NCBI GenBank assembly: GCA_903829945.1
Contig: CAIKRV010000069.1
Coordinates: 1-34,089 of the forward strand
Direction: 5' to 3'
DNA from: an uncultured bacterium
Lineage (GTDB): Bacteria > Bacteroidota > Bacteroidia > CAILMK01
Length of the DNA: 34,089 bases
A program made the position numbers and the translations under genes. Below, piece by piece: positions 17,657 through 29,066 of this stretch. How positions within the stretch are numbered: position 1 is the stretch's first letter; every line of letters begins with the position of its first letter. The notes beneath the pieces were generated by a model that saw nothing but the letters and a program-made list of their open reading frames with translations, was not told the DNA's origin and did not search any database.

Positions 17657-17719
17657 CTTGTAAAAAATCAAAAGCTTGTTCTGGACTTAGTTTTGTCGAA
17701 CCGTTTAATATCGATTAGG

Positions 17720-17757
17720 AGCTGCCGGGGCATCTTTTTTATAATGTTCCGGCAGCT
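17720..17757. other. Inverted repeat at the 5' end of the receiver gene
   Basis: A 9-bp GC-rich inverted repeat (AGCTGCCGG at 17720-17728 and CCGGCAGCT at 17749-17757) encloses a 20-base loop that contains the candidate start codon ATG 17744. It has no T-tract, so it does not look like a terminator. It may control translation, or may be residue of an inserted element. Confidence 0.45.
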
Positions 17758-18223
17758 AATTTCGAGCAATAAAATAACACTTGTGGATTTAATAGAAAGG
17801 GAAAAGTCAAGAACTTTATCTTGTATTTTACTTATTGGGGATGATATATCATCCAATTATTTGCATCAAATGACCATTCGGTCCTGTGGATTTGAGCATT
17901 ATATTCATACTTCAAGGTCTGCTGAAGAAGCCTTGGAATTTTTAAGTTTTAATACTGTTTATCAGGTCGGTAATGATTTGCCGAGACCGGGACTTATTAT
18001 TTTGGATGCCAATTTGCCACGTATGGGGGTGAATGATTTTGTTGAGGAATTTAGGAAACTACCTTTCGAAACCCAATCCAATTGTATGATTACTTTAACT
18101 ACTGCTGTTCATGATATTGATAATCATGAACATATCAAACATATTCCGGAAATAACCAAGGTTCTACCTAAGCCATTAAGTAAGGACTTAATAGAAGCCT
18201 TAATTCAAGAGTATCACAAATAA
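17744..18223 (+). CDS. Receiver-only response regulator
   Basis: A stand-alone CheY-like receiver domain with no output domain. Counting from ATG 17744, it shows the acidic pair (ILLIGDD), the phospho-acceptor Asp in LIILDANLPRMG, the Thr in ITLTT and the conserved Lys in VLPKPLS. One acidic-site position holds Gly, giving GDD rather than DDD. The frame is open to an ATG at 17693, but that start would run through the inverted repeat 17720-17757. ATG 17744 is preferred and a GTG at 17783 is possible. No kinase is adjacent; the neighbour is the divergent TPR-LuxR regulator. A strong terminator follows at 18247. Confidence 0.78.
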   Translation: MFRQLISSNKITLVDLIEREKSRTLSCILLIGDDISSNYLHQMTIRSCGFEHYIHTSRSAEEALEFLSFNTVYQVGNDLPRPGLIILDANLPRMGVNDFVEEFRKLPFETQSNCMITLTTAVHDIDNHEHIKHIPEITKVLPKPLSKDLIEALIQEYHK

Positions 18224-23141: not shown

Positions 23142-24044
23142 TTACTTAATAAGTTTAGAAATTATTTCCTGAATTTGTCCGGCCATTTTTATGTCGGCAG
23201 AATCATTCGGATGTCCATCATGAATAGATAAACAATAATAACCATCCGGGGCACTATAAAATAATTCCGGACCATTCATTACTTGGATATATTTTGAATC
23301 TCTTTCCGTGAAATAATTGGTATAATTTTTAAAATATTCTAATCTTTTGGTGAGATTAAAATCAGGCATCAAGTATAAAATAGTATGGGTGTTATGAGTG
23401 ATATTGGTACGGTTTAAAAATACCATGGCAGAATCTAAATCTGTCTTTTTTTCGTGGTAAGCCACTGCTCTGAAATATTGAAAATCACCAATAGGTAATG
23501 GTATTCCCTTCCTGCGTAAGGTGTTTTGTAAATTGGAGCTGACAAAATCAATTAACTTGGATGAATTATATAAGCTATGAACGAAGGCTTGTAATCCATG
23601 TGCTTTTTCTTTCTTTTCAGCTTTGCTGATTATATTATTTTTAGCATTGGAATCCGGATGAATAATTTTGGTGATGAGACCTTTTTTAAAGTTAACATCA
23701 TTCCAATTAACGCCTATAACTATAAAATCATTAGGCTGTAATTGCTGATCCAAGCTTTTAATAATGCGAATATAATCTGACCAATTATCTCCGGCTTGGC
23801 TGGAATCAATTACGATATAACCCGGTACATTTATTCGATTTGCAATTCTGTTTTCTTTTTTAACACCCAGTCCTTTGGTATAAGAATCTCCAAGTAAATA
23901 TATTTTACCTCCGCTGATGGGGTTAGTATTGCCTTCTTTAGTTTTTTGAATATCCTTGATTTCATTTACACCCAGGCGAACGTGTATTTGGAAGATGATT
24001 TCTCCAATAATTAAGAATGCTAATATTTTTAAAAATACTTTCAT
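23142..24044 (-). CDS. SGNH-hydrolase-like partner of MBOAT O-acyltransferase
   Basis: A 300-residue protein with one N-terminal membrane helix (about 5-22) and an extracytoplasmic SGNH-type domain: block I LLGDSYTKG with the nucleophile Ser, an Asn block in GVNWNDV, and the catalytic block DGHPND near the C-terminus. In AlgI/AlgJ, PatA/PatB and similar systems the SGNH protein takes the acyl group from the MBOAT channel and puts it on a polysaccharide or other surface target. It overlaps the MBOAT gene by a single base (TAATG), so the two are translationally coupled. The substrate is unknown. Confidence 0.82.
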   Translation of the reverse strand: MKVFLKILAFLIIGEIIFQIHVRLGVNEIKDIQKTKEGNTNPISGGKIYLLGDSYTKGLGVKKENRIANRINVPGYIVIDSSQAGDNWSDYIRIIKSLDQQLQPNDFIVIGVNWNDVNFKKGLITKIIHPDSNAKNNIISKAEKKEKAHGLQAFVHSLYNSSKLIDFVSSNLQNTLRRKGIPLPIGDFQYFRAVAYHEKKTDLDSAMVFLNRTNITHNTHTILYLMPDFNLTKRLEYFKNYTNYFTERDSKYIQVMNGPELFYSAPDGYYCLSIHDGHPNDSADIKMAGQIQEIISKLIK

Positions 24045-25468
24045 TAGAATTGGAAATATATAAATTTAACGGCATCTCCTCCAAAGGATCTTAAAATCAC
24101 CAGCCAGACTAAAATTGAAATAATTATAAAATTAAATAATTTTGGCGACAAATGTCTTTCATCTCTTCTTAATATCCAATCACCGATTAAAAGTGCACCT
24201 ATCGGTAAAAATATTTGATCAATATTCAAAATATCATGAAGCTGAAAAGAACTGCTGAATATTCGTTTGATGTACTTTAAAGCAATAGCGATATTAGGTG
24301 CCCTGAAGAAGATCCAAGCCAAGGTTACAAAGGCAAAAGTGCTGAGCATTTGCCATACTTCTTTAAGACTTGGTAAGGCGCTTTCCTGTGCTACCACAGA
24401 GGACACATGTTTTCTATTTTTATTTAAAAGTAACAAAGGCAAGAATCCACAGGCATGAATAAATCCCCAGGTAATAAAATTCCAACTGGCACCATGCCAA
24501 AATCCACTCACTAAAAATATAATAAAAGTATTTCTGACGGCTTTGGCCTTCCCATTTTTTGATCCTCCTAATGGGATATATAAATAATCTCTAAACCATG
24601 AGGAAAGAGAAATATGCCAGCGTCTCCAAAACTCAGCTATATCTCTGGAAAAATAAGGGAATTTGAAATTACTTAATAATTCAAAGCCCATTAATTTGGC
24701 GGTTCCTAATGCAATATCTGTATAGCCGCTAAAATCACCATAAATTTGAAAACTATAGGCAATGGCACCAAATAATAATGTTAGTGAATGTTGTGATTGA
24801 TAGGTCCCAAAAATTTGATCAACGGTACCTGCAAGGGTATCTGCAATGACAATTTTTTTAAATAAACCCCACAATATTAATTTGCATCCATCCCAAAATT
24901 GTTTTTTATCATACCTTCTTTTTTGCTGAACCTGCGGTAATAAATGATGGGCTCGTTCTATAGGACCGGCAACCAATAGCGGGAAAAAGCATACAAAAAC
25001 AGCATAATCAATAAAGTTTTTTACCGGTTTTTGTTGTCCTCTGTAAATATCAAAAACGTAGGACATTCCATGGAAGGTATAAAATGAAATACCGATGGGT
25101 AAGGCCACTTGTAACAAAAGGGGATGGGTTTGTATGCCAATTGAACTGAAGGCCGCCTGAAACTGGGTTGCAAAAAAGTTGTAATATTTGAATACCGCCA
25201 GGATGCCTAAATTATTCAATACACTAAGCCAAAGGAAGAATTTTGCCTTGCTCTTTACGGAAGATGCTACACCAAAACCATATGCAAAATCAAGCAGGGT
25301 ACTGAGGATAAGCAGTCCCAAAAATTGGTAGCTCCACCAGCCGTAAAAGAAATAACTGGCAAGTAAAATTAATACGTTTTGTAATCGTAAGGATTTGTTA
25401 AATACAAACCAATACAAGCACAATACCACCGGTAGGAACAGTAAAAATTCGAAGGAATTGAATAACAC
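24044..25468 (-). CDS. MBOAT-family membrane O-acyltransferase (AlgI-like)
   Basis: A 474-residue membrane protein with about ten helices. The N-terminus MLFNSFEFLLFLPVVLCLYW is typical of this family and here starts with GTG (25466-25468). Hallmarks are QIYGDFSGYTDIALG, EFWRRWHISLSSWFRDYLYIPLGGS and the catalytic His325 in SGFWHGASWN. It moves acyl groups, usually acetyl, from cytoplasmic acyl-CoA across the membrane to its SGNH partner. It is the first gene of a two-gene operon. No capsule or exopolysaccharide genes are adjacent, so the acceptor cannot be told. Confidence 0.9.
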   Translation of the reverse strand: MLFNSFEFLLFLPVVLCLYWFVFNKSLRLQNVLILLASYFFYGWWSYQFLGLLILSTLLDFAYGFGVASSVKSKAKFFLWLSVLNNLGILAVFKYYNFFATQFQAAFSSIGIQTHPLLLQVALPIGISFYTFHGMSYVFDIYRGQQKPVKNFIDYAVFVCFFPLLVAGPIERAHHLLPQVQQKRRYDKKQFWDGCKLILWGLFKKIVIADTLAGTVDQIFGTYQSQHSLTLLFGAIAYSFQIYGDFSGYTDIALGTAKLMGFELLSNFKFPYFSRDIAEFWRRWHISLSSWFRDYLYIPLGGSKNGKAKAVRNTFIIFLVSGFWHGASWNFITWGFIHACGFLPLLLLNKNRKHVSSVVAQESALPSLKEVWQMLSTFAFVTLAWIFFRAPNIAIALKYIKRIFSSSFQLHDILNIDQIFLPIGALLIGDWILRRDERHLSPKLFNFIIISILVWLVILRSFGGDAVKFIYFQF

Positions 25469-26008
25469 GTTCTGGTAAAAATTTTATATTATGCAGATTA
25501 TTAACTACTTATAATTGAAAAAATGCATAAGTGCCACAAAAATAGGCATTTTCTTTAATTTATTTATTAGGATAATTTAAAGGCCTAAAGGAATATCAAT
25601 TTTTTGAAATCAAATGGTTTAGCATCTTTTCTTCATGGGCGGGCCTAAAAGTTTTGATGGCGATGTGATAAAGATTATGCTAATAAATGTTATTACCAAC
25701 CATTGTTTATAATTAATTAGATTTAGGGATTCTCTGAGCAAGATTATTTCCAAATTAAGGATGGGTTAAATATTCGTCTACTCCCTAAATAAGTTAAATC
25801 CTTTTTAAAAAAAATAATATGTTTGAAGAACGATTTAAAAAGTGTTCCTTTTTTTAGCACTTAATTTTAAGTTTTAAGGTACATTTATTGATTTTTTAAT
25901 TTTTGGCAGATATCAATTTTGTTTTGATGTATTATATTTGTTAATTGATATCTTCTTTCAGCCTATAAACTAGATATTGATTTTAAAAAAAACTAAAAAC
26001 CGGATCGT
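25469..26008. other. Intergenic region between divergent MBOAT and receiver operons
   Basis: 540 bp of AT-rich DNA with no convincing gene. Seen here: weak inverted repeats near the MBOAT start (TTATGCA at 25489-25495 with TGCATAA at 25524-25530; ACTTAT/ATAAGT at 25507-25512 and 25527-25532), a TGTGATAAAGATTA segment at 25665-25677 that only half-matches a Crp/Fnr box, an ATCAA/TTGAT inverted repeat at 25912-25928, and a possible -7 element at 25933-25940. Confidence 0.5.
25933..25940 (+). promoter_or_regulatory. Possible -7 promoter element of the receiver-FIST-kinase operon
   Basis: TATATTTG matches the Bacteroidota -7 consensus TAnnTTTG and lies 68 bp upstream of the receiver ATG. An inverted repeat ATCAA-N7-TTGAT (25912-25928) abuts it. 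There is no TTTG at the ideal -33 spacing, so the call is tentative. Confidence 0.3.
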
Positions 26009-26512
26009 ATGGGTATTCCTAAACTTAACTTCCTTTTAATCGACGATGATGAAGTTTTTAACTACTTGAACAAAAAATCGGTTACAAAATCCGAACATTC
26101 AAAAGATGTTGAAATATTTTTAAGTGCTGCAAATGCCTTAGAATATTTACATGAATTAATAAAATCTAAAAAAGAGTTCCCGGATATTATTTTATTAGAT
26201 ATAAGTATGCCTGTAATGAATGGCTTTGATTTTTTGGAAGCATTTGAAAAATTACCGGTTAAATTCAAGACCAAAACCAGTATTTATATGCTTTCATCTT
26301 CCATGAATGATGAAGACGTAAAAAGTGCAGGCAATTTCACGTCAGTGATAGGTTATTTATGCAAGCCGTTAAATTTGAAAAAGGTTGACGAAATCTGCAA
26401 TGAAGTTCTCAGCTTAAAGAAAACTAAAAAAAAGAACATCAATACTAAAGAAAATTCAAATGAAATCTATACAATACCTATGGAGAGAAAAACAGGGTTG
26501 GCAAACTTGTAA
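26009..26512 (+). CDS. Receiver-only response regulator of the FIST-kinase operon
   Basis: A 167-residue protein with one complete receiver domain: acidic residues Asp12-Asp13 in LLIDDDEVF, phospho-acceptor Asp64 in ILLDISMPVMNG, Ser at 96-97 in MLSSS, and Lys119 in LCKPL. A Lys-rich tail (about 134-150) follows, but there is no DNA-binding or enzymatic output domain. It is first in a four-gene operon with FIST, histidine kinase and DUF1801 genes, and is the probable phosphorylation partner of that kinase. Its last 53 bases overlap the start of the FIST gene. Confidence 0.88.
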   Translation: MGIPKLNFLLIDDDEVFNYLNKKSVTKSEHSKDVEIFLSAANALEYLHELIKSKKEFPDIILLDISMPVMNGFDFLEAFEKLPVKFKTKTSIYMLSSSMNDEDVKSAGNFTSVIGYLCKPLNLKKVDEICNEVLSLKKTKKKNINTKENSNEIYTIPMERKTGLANL

Positions 26513-27614
26513 TCCCGAACAAGAGGAAAACTTTGTGCCGAATGTTTTATTTGTTTTTGGTAGTTCTGCATTGCTAAAAGATAAACAAAATATTATTGGA
26601 ATCAAGGAAAAATTTAAGAATGCTATTTTATTCGGTTGCACCACAGCAGGTGAAATTGTAAATAATAGTGTTTATTACGATAGCATTATTGTTAACGCAT
26701 GTTTATTCGAAAAAACAGAAGTGAAATTTAATCAGGTTCCAATTAATAACAGGGTAGATAGTTTTAATGCAGGGTCAGCTTTAGCATCAAAGTTTGACCA
26801 AGAAAATTTACGATATATATTTGTATTATCGGACGGACTTAATGTCAACGGTTCGGAGTTAATTCGGGGATTACAATCTGAATTTAATGAAAATATTCCT
26901 ATTTCCGGAGGTTTGGCCGGGGACGGGCCTAATTTTAATGAAACTTTTTTATTTAGTGAACAAGGAAATGTTGAATCTAAAATTATTACGGCTTTAGGTT
27001 TTTATGGTGATCATATTAAAATTGGTAATGCAAGTTTTGGAGGATGGGATTCCTTTGGCATTGATAGAACCGTTACCAAGGCCATTGATAATGTATTGTA
27101 CGAAATAGATGGACAACCTGCTCTTGATTTATACAAGTACTTTCTAGGGGAGGAGCAATCTCTAAATTTGCCGGCCTCAGGGTTACTATTCCCTTTATCC
27201 ATGCGCAATGATGCGAGTGCTCGTCCTGTAGTTCGAACTGTTTTAGCTGTAGATGAAGCAAGCAAGTCTATGACTTTTGCAGGGGAAATACCCAGCGGTT
27301 CAGTGGTACGCTTAATGAAGGCAAATTTGGATCATTTAATAAATGGTGCCATTACGGCCGCCAATACTTTACAAAATGATTATTTTAATGATGAAACCAT
27401 AGATTTTGCTTTATTAATTAGTTGTGTGGGTCGAAAAATGGTGCTCAAACAAATTGTAGAAGAAGAAATAGAAGGAGTCAGCAATATCTTAGGCGCTATG
27501 ATAAATATTTCCGGCTTTTACTCTTACGGAGAAATTGCTCAATTTGATAAAAATTCTAAATGTGAATTGCATAATCAATCAATGACCATTACAGCATTTA
27601 AAGAATTAGTTTAA
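26460..27614 (+). CDS. FIST domain sensor protein
   Basis: A 384-residue soluble protein with FIST N and FIST C domains. It shows the N-terminal LFGCTTAGEI segment, ISGGLAGDG near the middle, and the C-terminal CVGRKMVL... ISGFYSYGEIA characteristic of FIST_C. FIST domains are thought to bind small ligands, perhaps amino acids, for signal transduction. No membrane segment or signal peptide is seen. The start MKSIQYLWREKQGW resembles the family, supporting the 53-bp overlap with the receiver gene. The kinase gene begins within its stop codon (TAATG). It is likely the sensory input of the adjacent kinase, which is an inference. Confidence 0.9.
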   Translation: MKSIQYLWREKQGWQTCNPEQEENFVPNVLFVFGSSALLKDKQNIIGIKEKFKNAILFGCTTAGEIVNNSVYYDSIIVNACLFEKTEVKFNQVPINNRVDSFNAGSALASKFDQENLRYIFVLSDGLNVNGSELIRGLQSEFNENIPISGGLAGDGPNFNETFLFSEQGNVESKIITALGFYGDHIKIGNASFGGWDSFGIDRTVTKAIDNVLYEIDGQPALDLYKYFLGEEQSLNLPASGLLFPLSMRNDASARPVVRTVLAVDEASKSMTFAGEIPSGSVVRLMKANLDHLINGAITAANTLQNDYFNDETIDFALLISCVGRKMVLKQIVEEEIEGVSNILGAMINISGFYSYGEIAQFDKNSKCELHNQSMTITAFKELV

Positions 27615-28618
27615 TGTCCGAAATACAATTTCATCGCTTACTGAAAAGACAGCTGAATAAGTTCTTTCCAAACTATGCGGCACAACCGCAACTGCAGGAT
27701 TTTTTGGAGGCCGTAAATAATGCGTATAAAGGTTCTGATGAGGAATATGCAAATTTGGAAAGAATCCTTGAACTTAGCTCTCAGGAACAATTTAAGCTTA
27801 ATCAAGAACTTAAAAAATTTAGTTCTAATTTAGAAGAAATTGTAAAGGAACGCACAGAGGAATTATTGCAAACCAATAATGCCCTGCAAAGTGAAGTGGA
27901 AGTTAGAAAATTGGCTGAAGAGAAATTGCAATTTTATACTGAAGATTTAGAAAAACGAAATAAGGAATTAGATAAATTTGCCTATATCGTTTCACATGAT
28001 TTAAAATCACCTTTAAAAGCCATCAAAGGACTTGCCTTATTGATGCAGGAAGATCTTGAAGAAAATATAACGGATGATCTGACGTATAAAATTGAACTGA
28101 TTTTGGAAACATCTGAAAAGATGAGCAATTTAATTTCTGGAATTTTGCTTTATTCCAAAGCCGGAAGAATCAGTGGCGAAAAAGAAGAGTTTAACAGCTT
28201 TGATTTGGTTAGTGATATCGTGAAATCATTTAAATTGGTAGAATCTTTCAAAATAAATATATCAAAGCATTTACCAAGATTGAAGACTTATAAAATTGCT
28301 ATTGAGCAAATTTTTACAAATTATATTTCAAATGCCATTAAATATACAAATTTAGGGGCACCTGAAATTAGTATTAATTATTTTCAAACCGATACCCATC
28401 ATGTTTTTGGGGTTACGGATAATGGAGAGGGAATAGATCCAAAACATCATGAATCCATCTTTGATTTATTTCAAATGCTTTCTACTAAAAAAGTAAGCGA
28501 TAGTACCGGAATCGGACTGAGTATTGTTAATAAACTAGCGCATGAGTTGGGTGGTAAGGCTTGGGTGGAATCAAATGTTGGCAGTGGCAGTACTTTCTAT
28601 TTTAGTTTAATGAAATAA
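27614..28618 (+). CDS. Soluble sensor histidine kinase
   Basis: A 334-residue cytoplasmic kinase. The N-terminal segment (1-60) is the helical linker (LLKRQLNKFF... FLEAVNNAY) found in related kinases. A coiled coil spans about 55-120, then HisKA with His128 in FAYIVSHDLKSPLKAIKGL. An HATPase domain follows with the N-box NAIKYT, DNGEGID and TGIGLSIVNKLAHELGG. There is no membrane helix and no PAS or GAF domain, so it has no sensor of its own. It overlaps the FIST stop codon by one base, and DUF1801 follows after 7 bp. Its likely partners are the FIST protein (input) and the receiver (output). Confidence 0.92.
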   Translation: MSEIQFHRLLKRQLNKFFPNYAAQPQLQDFLEAVNNAYKGSDEEYANLERILELSSQEQFKLNQELKKFSSNLEEIVKERTEELLQTNNALQSEVEVRKLAEEKLQFYTEDLEKRNKELDKFAYIVSHDLKSPLKAIKGLALLMQEDLEENITDDLTYKIELILETSEKMSNLISGILLYSKAGRISGEKEEFNSFDLVSDIVKSFKLVESFKINISKHLPRLKTYKIAIEQIFTNYISNAIKYTNLGAPEISINYFQTDTHHVFGVTDNGEGIDPKHHESIFDLFQMLSTKKVSDSTGIGLSIVNKLAHELGGKAWVESNVGSGSTFYFSLMK

Positions 28619-28625
28619 AAAAACA

Positions 28626-29066
28626 ATGGCTGTAAAAGAAGCAAAGTTGGCAGAAAATAAAATCAAACCTACTGCAAATGATGTTTTAGTGTATATCCAA
28701 GGAATTGAGGAGCCGCAAAAGCTTGAGGATAGTTTGGTGTTATTGAATTTATTAAAAGAAATATCTAAAACAGAACCGGTTTTGTGGAGCAATTCTTTTA
28801 TTGGTTTCGGTACAAAGATTCACAAAAGTGTGGCAAGCGGCAGATTATCCGAATGGATGCGCATCGGTTTTGCTGCTCGTAAAGGTAATCTGACATTATA
28901 TTTCGGAACCTATATAAATGAATTAGGAAATAGCCTGGAAAAACTCGGTAAATATAAATCTGGTATGGGATGCCTCTACATTAAAAAACTTTCATATGTA
29001 AATATGGATGTGTTGAAGGAGCTATATATTGCGGCATGGAAGAATGAATTGGGGAGTAATTATTAA
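28626..29066 (+). CDS. DUF1801 domain protein
   Basis: A 146-residue soluble protein with a DUF1801 (YdhG-like) fold: the segment EPVLWSNSFIGFG followed by WMRIGFAARKGNLTLYF is typical. Function of this family is not established. It is 7 bp after the kinase gene with no terminator between and is the last gene of the operon. A 137-bp gap without a clear terminator separates it from the convergent propeller gene. Confidence 0.82.
   Translation: MAVKEAKLAENKIKPTANDVLVYIQGIEEPQKLEDSLVLLNLLKEISKTEPVLWSNSFIGFGTKIHKSVASGRLSEWMRIGFAARKGNLTLYFGTYINELGNSLEKLGKYKSGMGCLYIKKLSYVNMDVLKELYIAAWKNELGSNY

Follow-up and report, generated by a model that had tools for sequence, protein, structure and literature searches.

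The four genes at positions 26,009 to 29,066 of the 34,089-nt stretch of DNA analysed here (the window) probably encode a two-component system that has a FIST sensor and operates in the manner of NosP-NosK; its receiver is bare, and its DUF1801 neighbour is not shared by relatives. We assign a probability of about 0.7 to the reading that their products form a two-component pathway in the cytoplasm, with FIST as a detached sensor and the DUF1801 protein as a passenger or accessory. In this pathway, whose docking, ligand, phosphotransfer and output steps we infer, the FIST protein would bind a cytoplasmic ligand, with heme carrying NO as the candidate of best precedent, and dock onto a segment of ~65 residues at the N terminus of the kinase, thereby altering autophosphorylation at H128. 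The phosphate would then pass from H128 of the kinase to D64 of the receiver, and the receiver may either bind a partner encoded elsewhere or shuttle the phosphate. The initial annotation had already proposed that FIST senses and that the kinase phosphorylates the receiver. This part is well supported by the linkage of the two genes across the class and by the NosP-NosK and NosP-NahK precedents, whereas the role it gave to DUF1801 did not hold up.

Organization of the operon

The operon and its surroundings comprise the following features:

25469..26008, no strand assigned: AT-rich intergenic stretch preceding the operon, presumably containing the promoter
26009..26512, + strand: single-domain response regulator (167 aa, Pfam Response_reg)
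26460..27614, + strand: FIST_N + FIST_C protein, presumed detached sensor (384 aa, Pfam FIST and FIST_C)
27614..28618, + strand: soluble histidine kinase (334 aa, HisKA + HATPase_c)
27626..27817, + strand: conserved N-terminal FIST-partner segment, kinase residues ~5-68 (HMM)
28626..29066, + strand: DUF1801/YdhG-like protein, last gene of the operon (146 aa, sub-cut-off Pfam match, AlphaFold fold)

The description of four tightly joined open reading frames on the same strand, with a 53-bp overlap, a 1-bp overlap (TAATG) and a 7-bp gap, was borne out in every detail. The response regulator thus lies in the same operon as the FIST protein and the kinase, and the 53 bp that it shares with the FIST gene represent a real overlap, because N-terminal residues conserved among relatives (MKxxQ...GW) confirm that FIST translation can be placed at 26460. 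The nearest gene upstream (24044-25468) lies on the opposite strand, and scans for sigma-70 sites and terminators returned no more sites than shuffled sequence. The divergent stretch at 23142-25468 encodes an MBOAT acyltransferase (474 aa) and, joined to it by a 1-bp overlap, a 300-aa protein without a Pfam match. A T9SS-type sorting tail (Por_Secre_tail) is also encoded near the operon and points to Bacteroidota, and a second, weak receiver-like protein (176 aa, TTG start; 20.3 bits, below the Pfam cut-off) is found at 17693-18223. The draft genome containing the window comprises 2.9 Mb in 97 contigs and is estimated to be 99.99% complete.

Linkage of FIST genes to signalling enzymes

Relatives of the FIST protein are present in 102 of 395 genomes of the same class, and 80 of their loci were retrieved with flanks for a gene-order survey of the kind suggested in the initial annotation. 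A same-strand gene for a kinase or another signalling protein usually lies within about 100 nt downstream of FIST, the partner being a kinase-like or SpoIIE gene in most loci. About one locus in four also encodes a receiver within 6 kb, in most cases downstream of the kinase gene. A bare receiver immediately preceding FIST is specific to the window and was absent from the other 80 loci. The same is true for a DUF1801 gene after the kinase. The linkage of FIST and kinase therefore holds across the class, but that of DUF1801 fails: none of the 80 loci has a homologue within 6 kb of its FIST gene, so that the four-gene set as a whole is not conserved.

Comparable arrangements exist on plasmids from elsewhere. 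The order receiver-FIST-kinase recurs on plasmids of Alloyangia and Sinorhizobium (the kinase frame of the latter being absent from the gene table), and Azospirillum plasmids show the order FIST, PAS kinase, response regulator. FIST-kinase pairs whose FIST proteins are 46-47% identical to that of the window are also found on contigs labelled Candidatus Staskawiczbacteria (L032, L033), reflecting either horizontal transfer or wrong binning. A Legionella anisa plasmid (L138:4476-5642) encodes a FIST protein with 42% identity to that of the window and no adjoining kinase.

The FIST protein and its candidate ligand

The presumed sensor matches Pfam FIST (149.8 bits, 1.1e-43) and FIST_C (114.8 bits, 3.9e-33) over residues 29-361 of 384 and, as expected for a NosP-type protein, carries no further domain. 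A search of the genome contigs with its sequence returned only two loci. Its closest NCBI model is the NosP equivalog of NCBIfam (NF041558), which it matches with 66.2 bits against a cut-off of 450; because it misses this cut-off, we class it as a FIST sensor that probably works like NosP rather than as NosP itself. Searches by sequence yielded no credible relatives of solved structure. In the AlphaFold model (pLDDT 95.3), the protein adopts a FIST fold, with the FIST domain of human FBXO22 as the best PDB match (Z 22.3 over 265 residues; all FBXO22 matches, Z 21.4-22.3 over 258-276 residues), followed by chorismatases and cyclic amide hydrolases (Z 11-15). The predicted fold agrees with what has been published on that of the FBXO22 FIST domain (PMC11185555).

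By analogy, the candidate ligand with the strongest precedent is heme with NO, since all biochemically studied bacterial FIST auxiliary sensors in the literature searched bind both (PMC12570481, PMC8846402). The genome encodes a ferrochelatase (HemH), so that heme can be made. Among 83 relatives, C322 is conserved without exception, C368 and H371 nearly so; H371 is also found in the FIST proteins of Legionella, Azospirillum, Nostoc and Alloyangia and may be a candidate axial ligand. The conservation of these residues is no proof of heme binding, because the identity of the NosP heme ligand was not found in the NosP literature searched. The assumption of heme binding is further tempered by the solved FIST domain of FBXO22, which has no obvious ligand pocket and whose binding of BACH1 is insensitive to heme (PMC11185555). 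A possible alternative, which we entertain only tentatively, retains the detached-sensor circuit but has the FIST protein sense a small organic molecule or the redox state instead of heme and NO. It would accommodate the structural matches to enzymes that bind small molecules, the original proposal (Borziak and Zhulin 2007, as cited in PMC11185555) that FIST senses small ligands, the conserved cysteines and the low NosP equivalog score, but it is at odds with the heme and NO binding of the characterized sensors and with the near-invariance of H371, the candidate axial ligand.

A conserved segment in the partners of FIST proteins

The kinase contains a HisKA (residues 119-183, 2.8e-9) and a HATPase_c domain (residues 228-332, 1.3e-22), with the phospho-acceptor H128 in an H-box of the sequence HDLKS, and the NCBI models that it matches include NahK/ErcS. 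Like the partners of NosP, it is a soluble kinase that adjoins the FIST gene, here with a 1-bp overlap, and has no recognised sensor domain of its own. The claim that it contains neither a sensor nor a membrane part was correct in that it has no membrane-like hydrophobic stretch and no recognised sensor domain, but it overlooked a conserved segment of ~65 aa at residues ~5-68 (FHRLLKRQLNKFF...FLEAVNNAY...LERILELSSQE...N). An HMM built from the N-termini of 73 FIST partners has the approximate consensus HkLLxRQIkKyL...FLxaVsxsYxxyexDxxllERxlelSSxELxxxNxxL, with L10 conserved in 71, Q13 in 72, Y38 in 69 and E58 in 67 of the 73 sequences. The segment is covered by no Pfam or NCBIfam model and has no credible match among solved structures, the weak matches to PPR and M proteins reflecting chance or coiled-coil character.

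When 395 whole genomes of the class were searched with 27 segment queries, 91 matches were obtained in 81 genomes, including that of the window kinase (86.9 bits at 27629-27817). For 74 of the 91, the start lies -1 to 97 nt beyond a same-strand FIST gene. Because 26 of the matches are themselves seed sequences, a fairer count leaves the seeds out and gives 48 of 65. FIST is present in 76 of the 81 segment-bearing genomes (Fisher p 4e-52), and the distances among FIST proteins correlate with those among segments (r 0.74 for 73 pairs, uncorrected for the species tree). The domains behind the segment vary, ranging from HisKA kinases containing as many as six PAS domains through hybrid kinases with a receiver to SpoIIE phosphatases. 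Outside the class, the Azospirillum partner, which starts with MHRLLQSQFKRVLG, reaches 37 bits against the segment profile, and the partners from Nostoc and Alloyangia do not score.

Seventeen of the 91 matches adjoin no detectable FIST gene, and three genomes (G137, G185, G346) contain a FIST gene without an adjacent segment, yet have a segment kinase elsewhere. The neighbours of orphan segments were also scanned for H-NOX or other gas sensors; they encode a histidine phosphatase, a transaldolase, UvrA, MutS and others, with no sensor among them. One segment kinase without an adjacent same-strand FIST gene is preceded at a distance of 2 bp by a gene for a 205-aa protein without a Pfam match (L158:6179-6796), a candidate alternative sensor. 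In a genome of the same family as the window (L146:3302-5781, G003), the segment (262 aa) and the kinase (403 aa) lie in separate ORFs with a receiver 2 kb further on and no FIST gene nearby; the two ORFs possibly represent a single, frameshifted kinase gene.

The simplest reading of this distribution is that the segment docks the FIST protein. Extending this idea, we slightly favour the view that it represents a shared plug-in, i.e. a previously undescribed docking domain of ~65 residues that would allow detached FIST sensors to control enzymes as different as PAS kinases, hybrid kinases and SpoIIE phosphatases. The window kinase would then be the minimal form, with this domain as its sole input. 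Alternatively, the segment could be no more than a linker, for dimerization or as a coiled coil, within a single kinase lineage, with its correlation to FIST explained by adjacency. Its predicted helical character, its continuation into a heptad-like stretch and the existence of divergent partners without it on the Nostoc and Alloyangia plasmids would fit such a linker, but this explanation appears unlikely, given that the segment precedes unrelated catalytic domains, including SpoIIE phosphatases devoid of a kinase domain, and is rare away from FIST in genomes that hold dozens of kinases. Several loci (L048:8001-10204, L053, L061 and similar ones) contain FIST genes followed by genes for SpoIIE-type phosphatases that carry the kinase-type N-terminal segment, an arrangement that may indicate control of PP2C-like phosphatases by FIST proteins.

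The docking reading is of broader relevance. Being almost confined to positions after FIST genes and before varied output enzymes, the segment is a concrete candidate for the site of sensor-kinase contact. Such a role would extend FIST signalling to SpoIIE phosphatases and to organisms without c-di-GMP enzymes. The segment is the main new product of this analysis, making the sensor-kinase contact directly testable, and the window kinase is about the smallest natural example of a FIST partner that bears it.

The receiver and its possible output

The initial annotation was also right in describing the receiver as lacking an output domain, with Pfam detecting the receiver domain only (Response_reg, 49.4 bits, 5.9e-13, residues 9-127). 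Its catalytic residues are intact (acidic pair D12/D13, phospho-acceptor D64, S96 and K119), and the receiver domain is followed by a basic, low-complexity C-terminal tail of ~30 aa. A c-di-GMP output domain on the regulator is usual, though not universal, in NosP systems. Pfam identified none on the regulator of the operon, and such an output is unlikely here, since no GGDEF protein was detected in the genome. Given this improbability, the bare receiver would have to act through protein binding or a phosphorelay. A search of the same genome for NirK returned nothing above the cut-off.

The DUF1801 protein

The last gene of the operon encodes a protein that matches Pfam DUF1801 with 23.5 bits (7.6e-5), below the gathering cut-off of 27.2, and forms one family with relatives at 45-53% identity. 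By sequence, it has no credible relatives of solved structure. Its AlphaFold model (pLDDT 82.6) displays the YdhG/Fra fold, with 9t2w (Z 12.0) and 2oc6 (Z 11.7), over 116 residues at 2.9 A, as the leading matches and the YdhG/Fra structures (Z 12.0, 11.7 and 10.1) standing clear of unrelated ones. The protein has a pI of 9.2, with seven acidic and three basic residues at positions 18-60.

The suggestion that DUF1801 acts as an effector or modulator found no support, and the neighbourhood survey led us to reject it as a conserved part of the system: homologues are widespread in the class, occurring in 132 of 395 genomes, and none was found within 6 kb of FIST in the 80 loci. The nearest homologues, at up to 54% identity, occur in loci without FIST, and a second DUF1801 gene in the genome of the window (G000:C80:18883-19257, L136; 41% identity) likewise lies away from any FIST gene. 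We therefore propose that the gene joined the operon recently, as a co-transcribed passenger or accessory. That the four proteins form a dedicated device, with the DUF1801 protein as effector or modulator, for instance as a frataxin-like supplier of iron or heme to FIST, is improbable. In its favour, the spacing from the kinase gene suggests co-translation, the model has the Fra fold, HemH is encoded in the genome, and Fra of B. subtilis supplies ferrochelatase with Fe2+ and is required for maturation of bsNos, a heme protein (PMC4380498). The protein of the window is, however, basic overall, unlike Fra with its acidic ridge, and unlinked to FIST in relatives.

Comparison with known systems

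The most distant counterparts share only the folds of individual components. The fourth protein resembles bacillary frataxin (Fra/YdhG, DUF1801; 9t2w and 2oc6) in its predicted fold, but differs in its low sequence identity (17%), its basic rather than acidic character and its sub-cut-off Pfam score. The FIST domain of FBXO22, a subunit of a eukaryotic SCF ubiquitin ligase, has the same fold as the predicted sensor, but serves as a substrate receptor in ubiquitination and has no kinase partner. Closer in layout is the H-NOX2/Lpg2458/Lpg2457 set of Legionella pneumophila, a putative pathway in which a detached gas sensor, a kinase and a CheY-like bare receiver are co-encoded (PMC8738867, PMC11237717), with the difference that the sensor is an H-NOX protein and not a FIST protein. 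In the NosP-NahK-NarR system of L. pneumophila and the NosP-NahK system of Pseudomonas aeruginosa, a FIST auxiliary sensor controls an adjacent histidine kinase (PMC8846402, PMC11237717), as we propose here, but NarR has a GGDEF/EAL output, whereas the genome of the window has no detectable GGDEF protein.

The closest parallel is nosRPK of Burkholderia pseudomallei, which shows the same order of receiver, FIST and kinase genes and the same single-protein FIST sensor (PMC12570481). NosP, a FIST-domain heme protein that senses NO and controls the adjacent kinase, binds NosK and controls its autophosphorylation, and NosK phosphorylates NosR (PMC12570481). NosK is, like the window kinase, a soluble protein without a recognised sensor domain and with an unassigned N-terminal stretch, in its case of ~130 residues before the DHp domain (PMC12570481). 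The window differs in that its receiver lacks an HD-GYP output, its kinase has the H-box HDLKS instead of HEINN, its FIST protein reaches 66 of 450 bits against the NosP equivalog and a DUF1801 gene follows. The core idea of a FIST-kinase circuit is thus right, but such circuits are already known from other bacteria.
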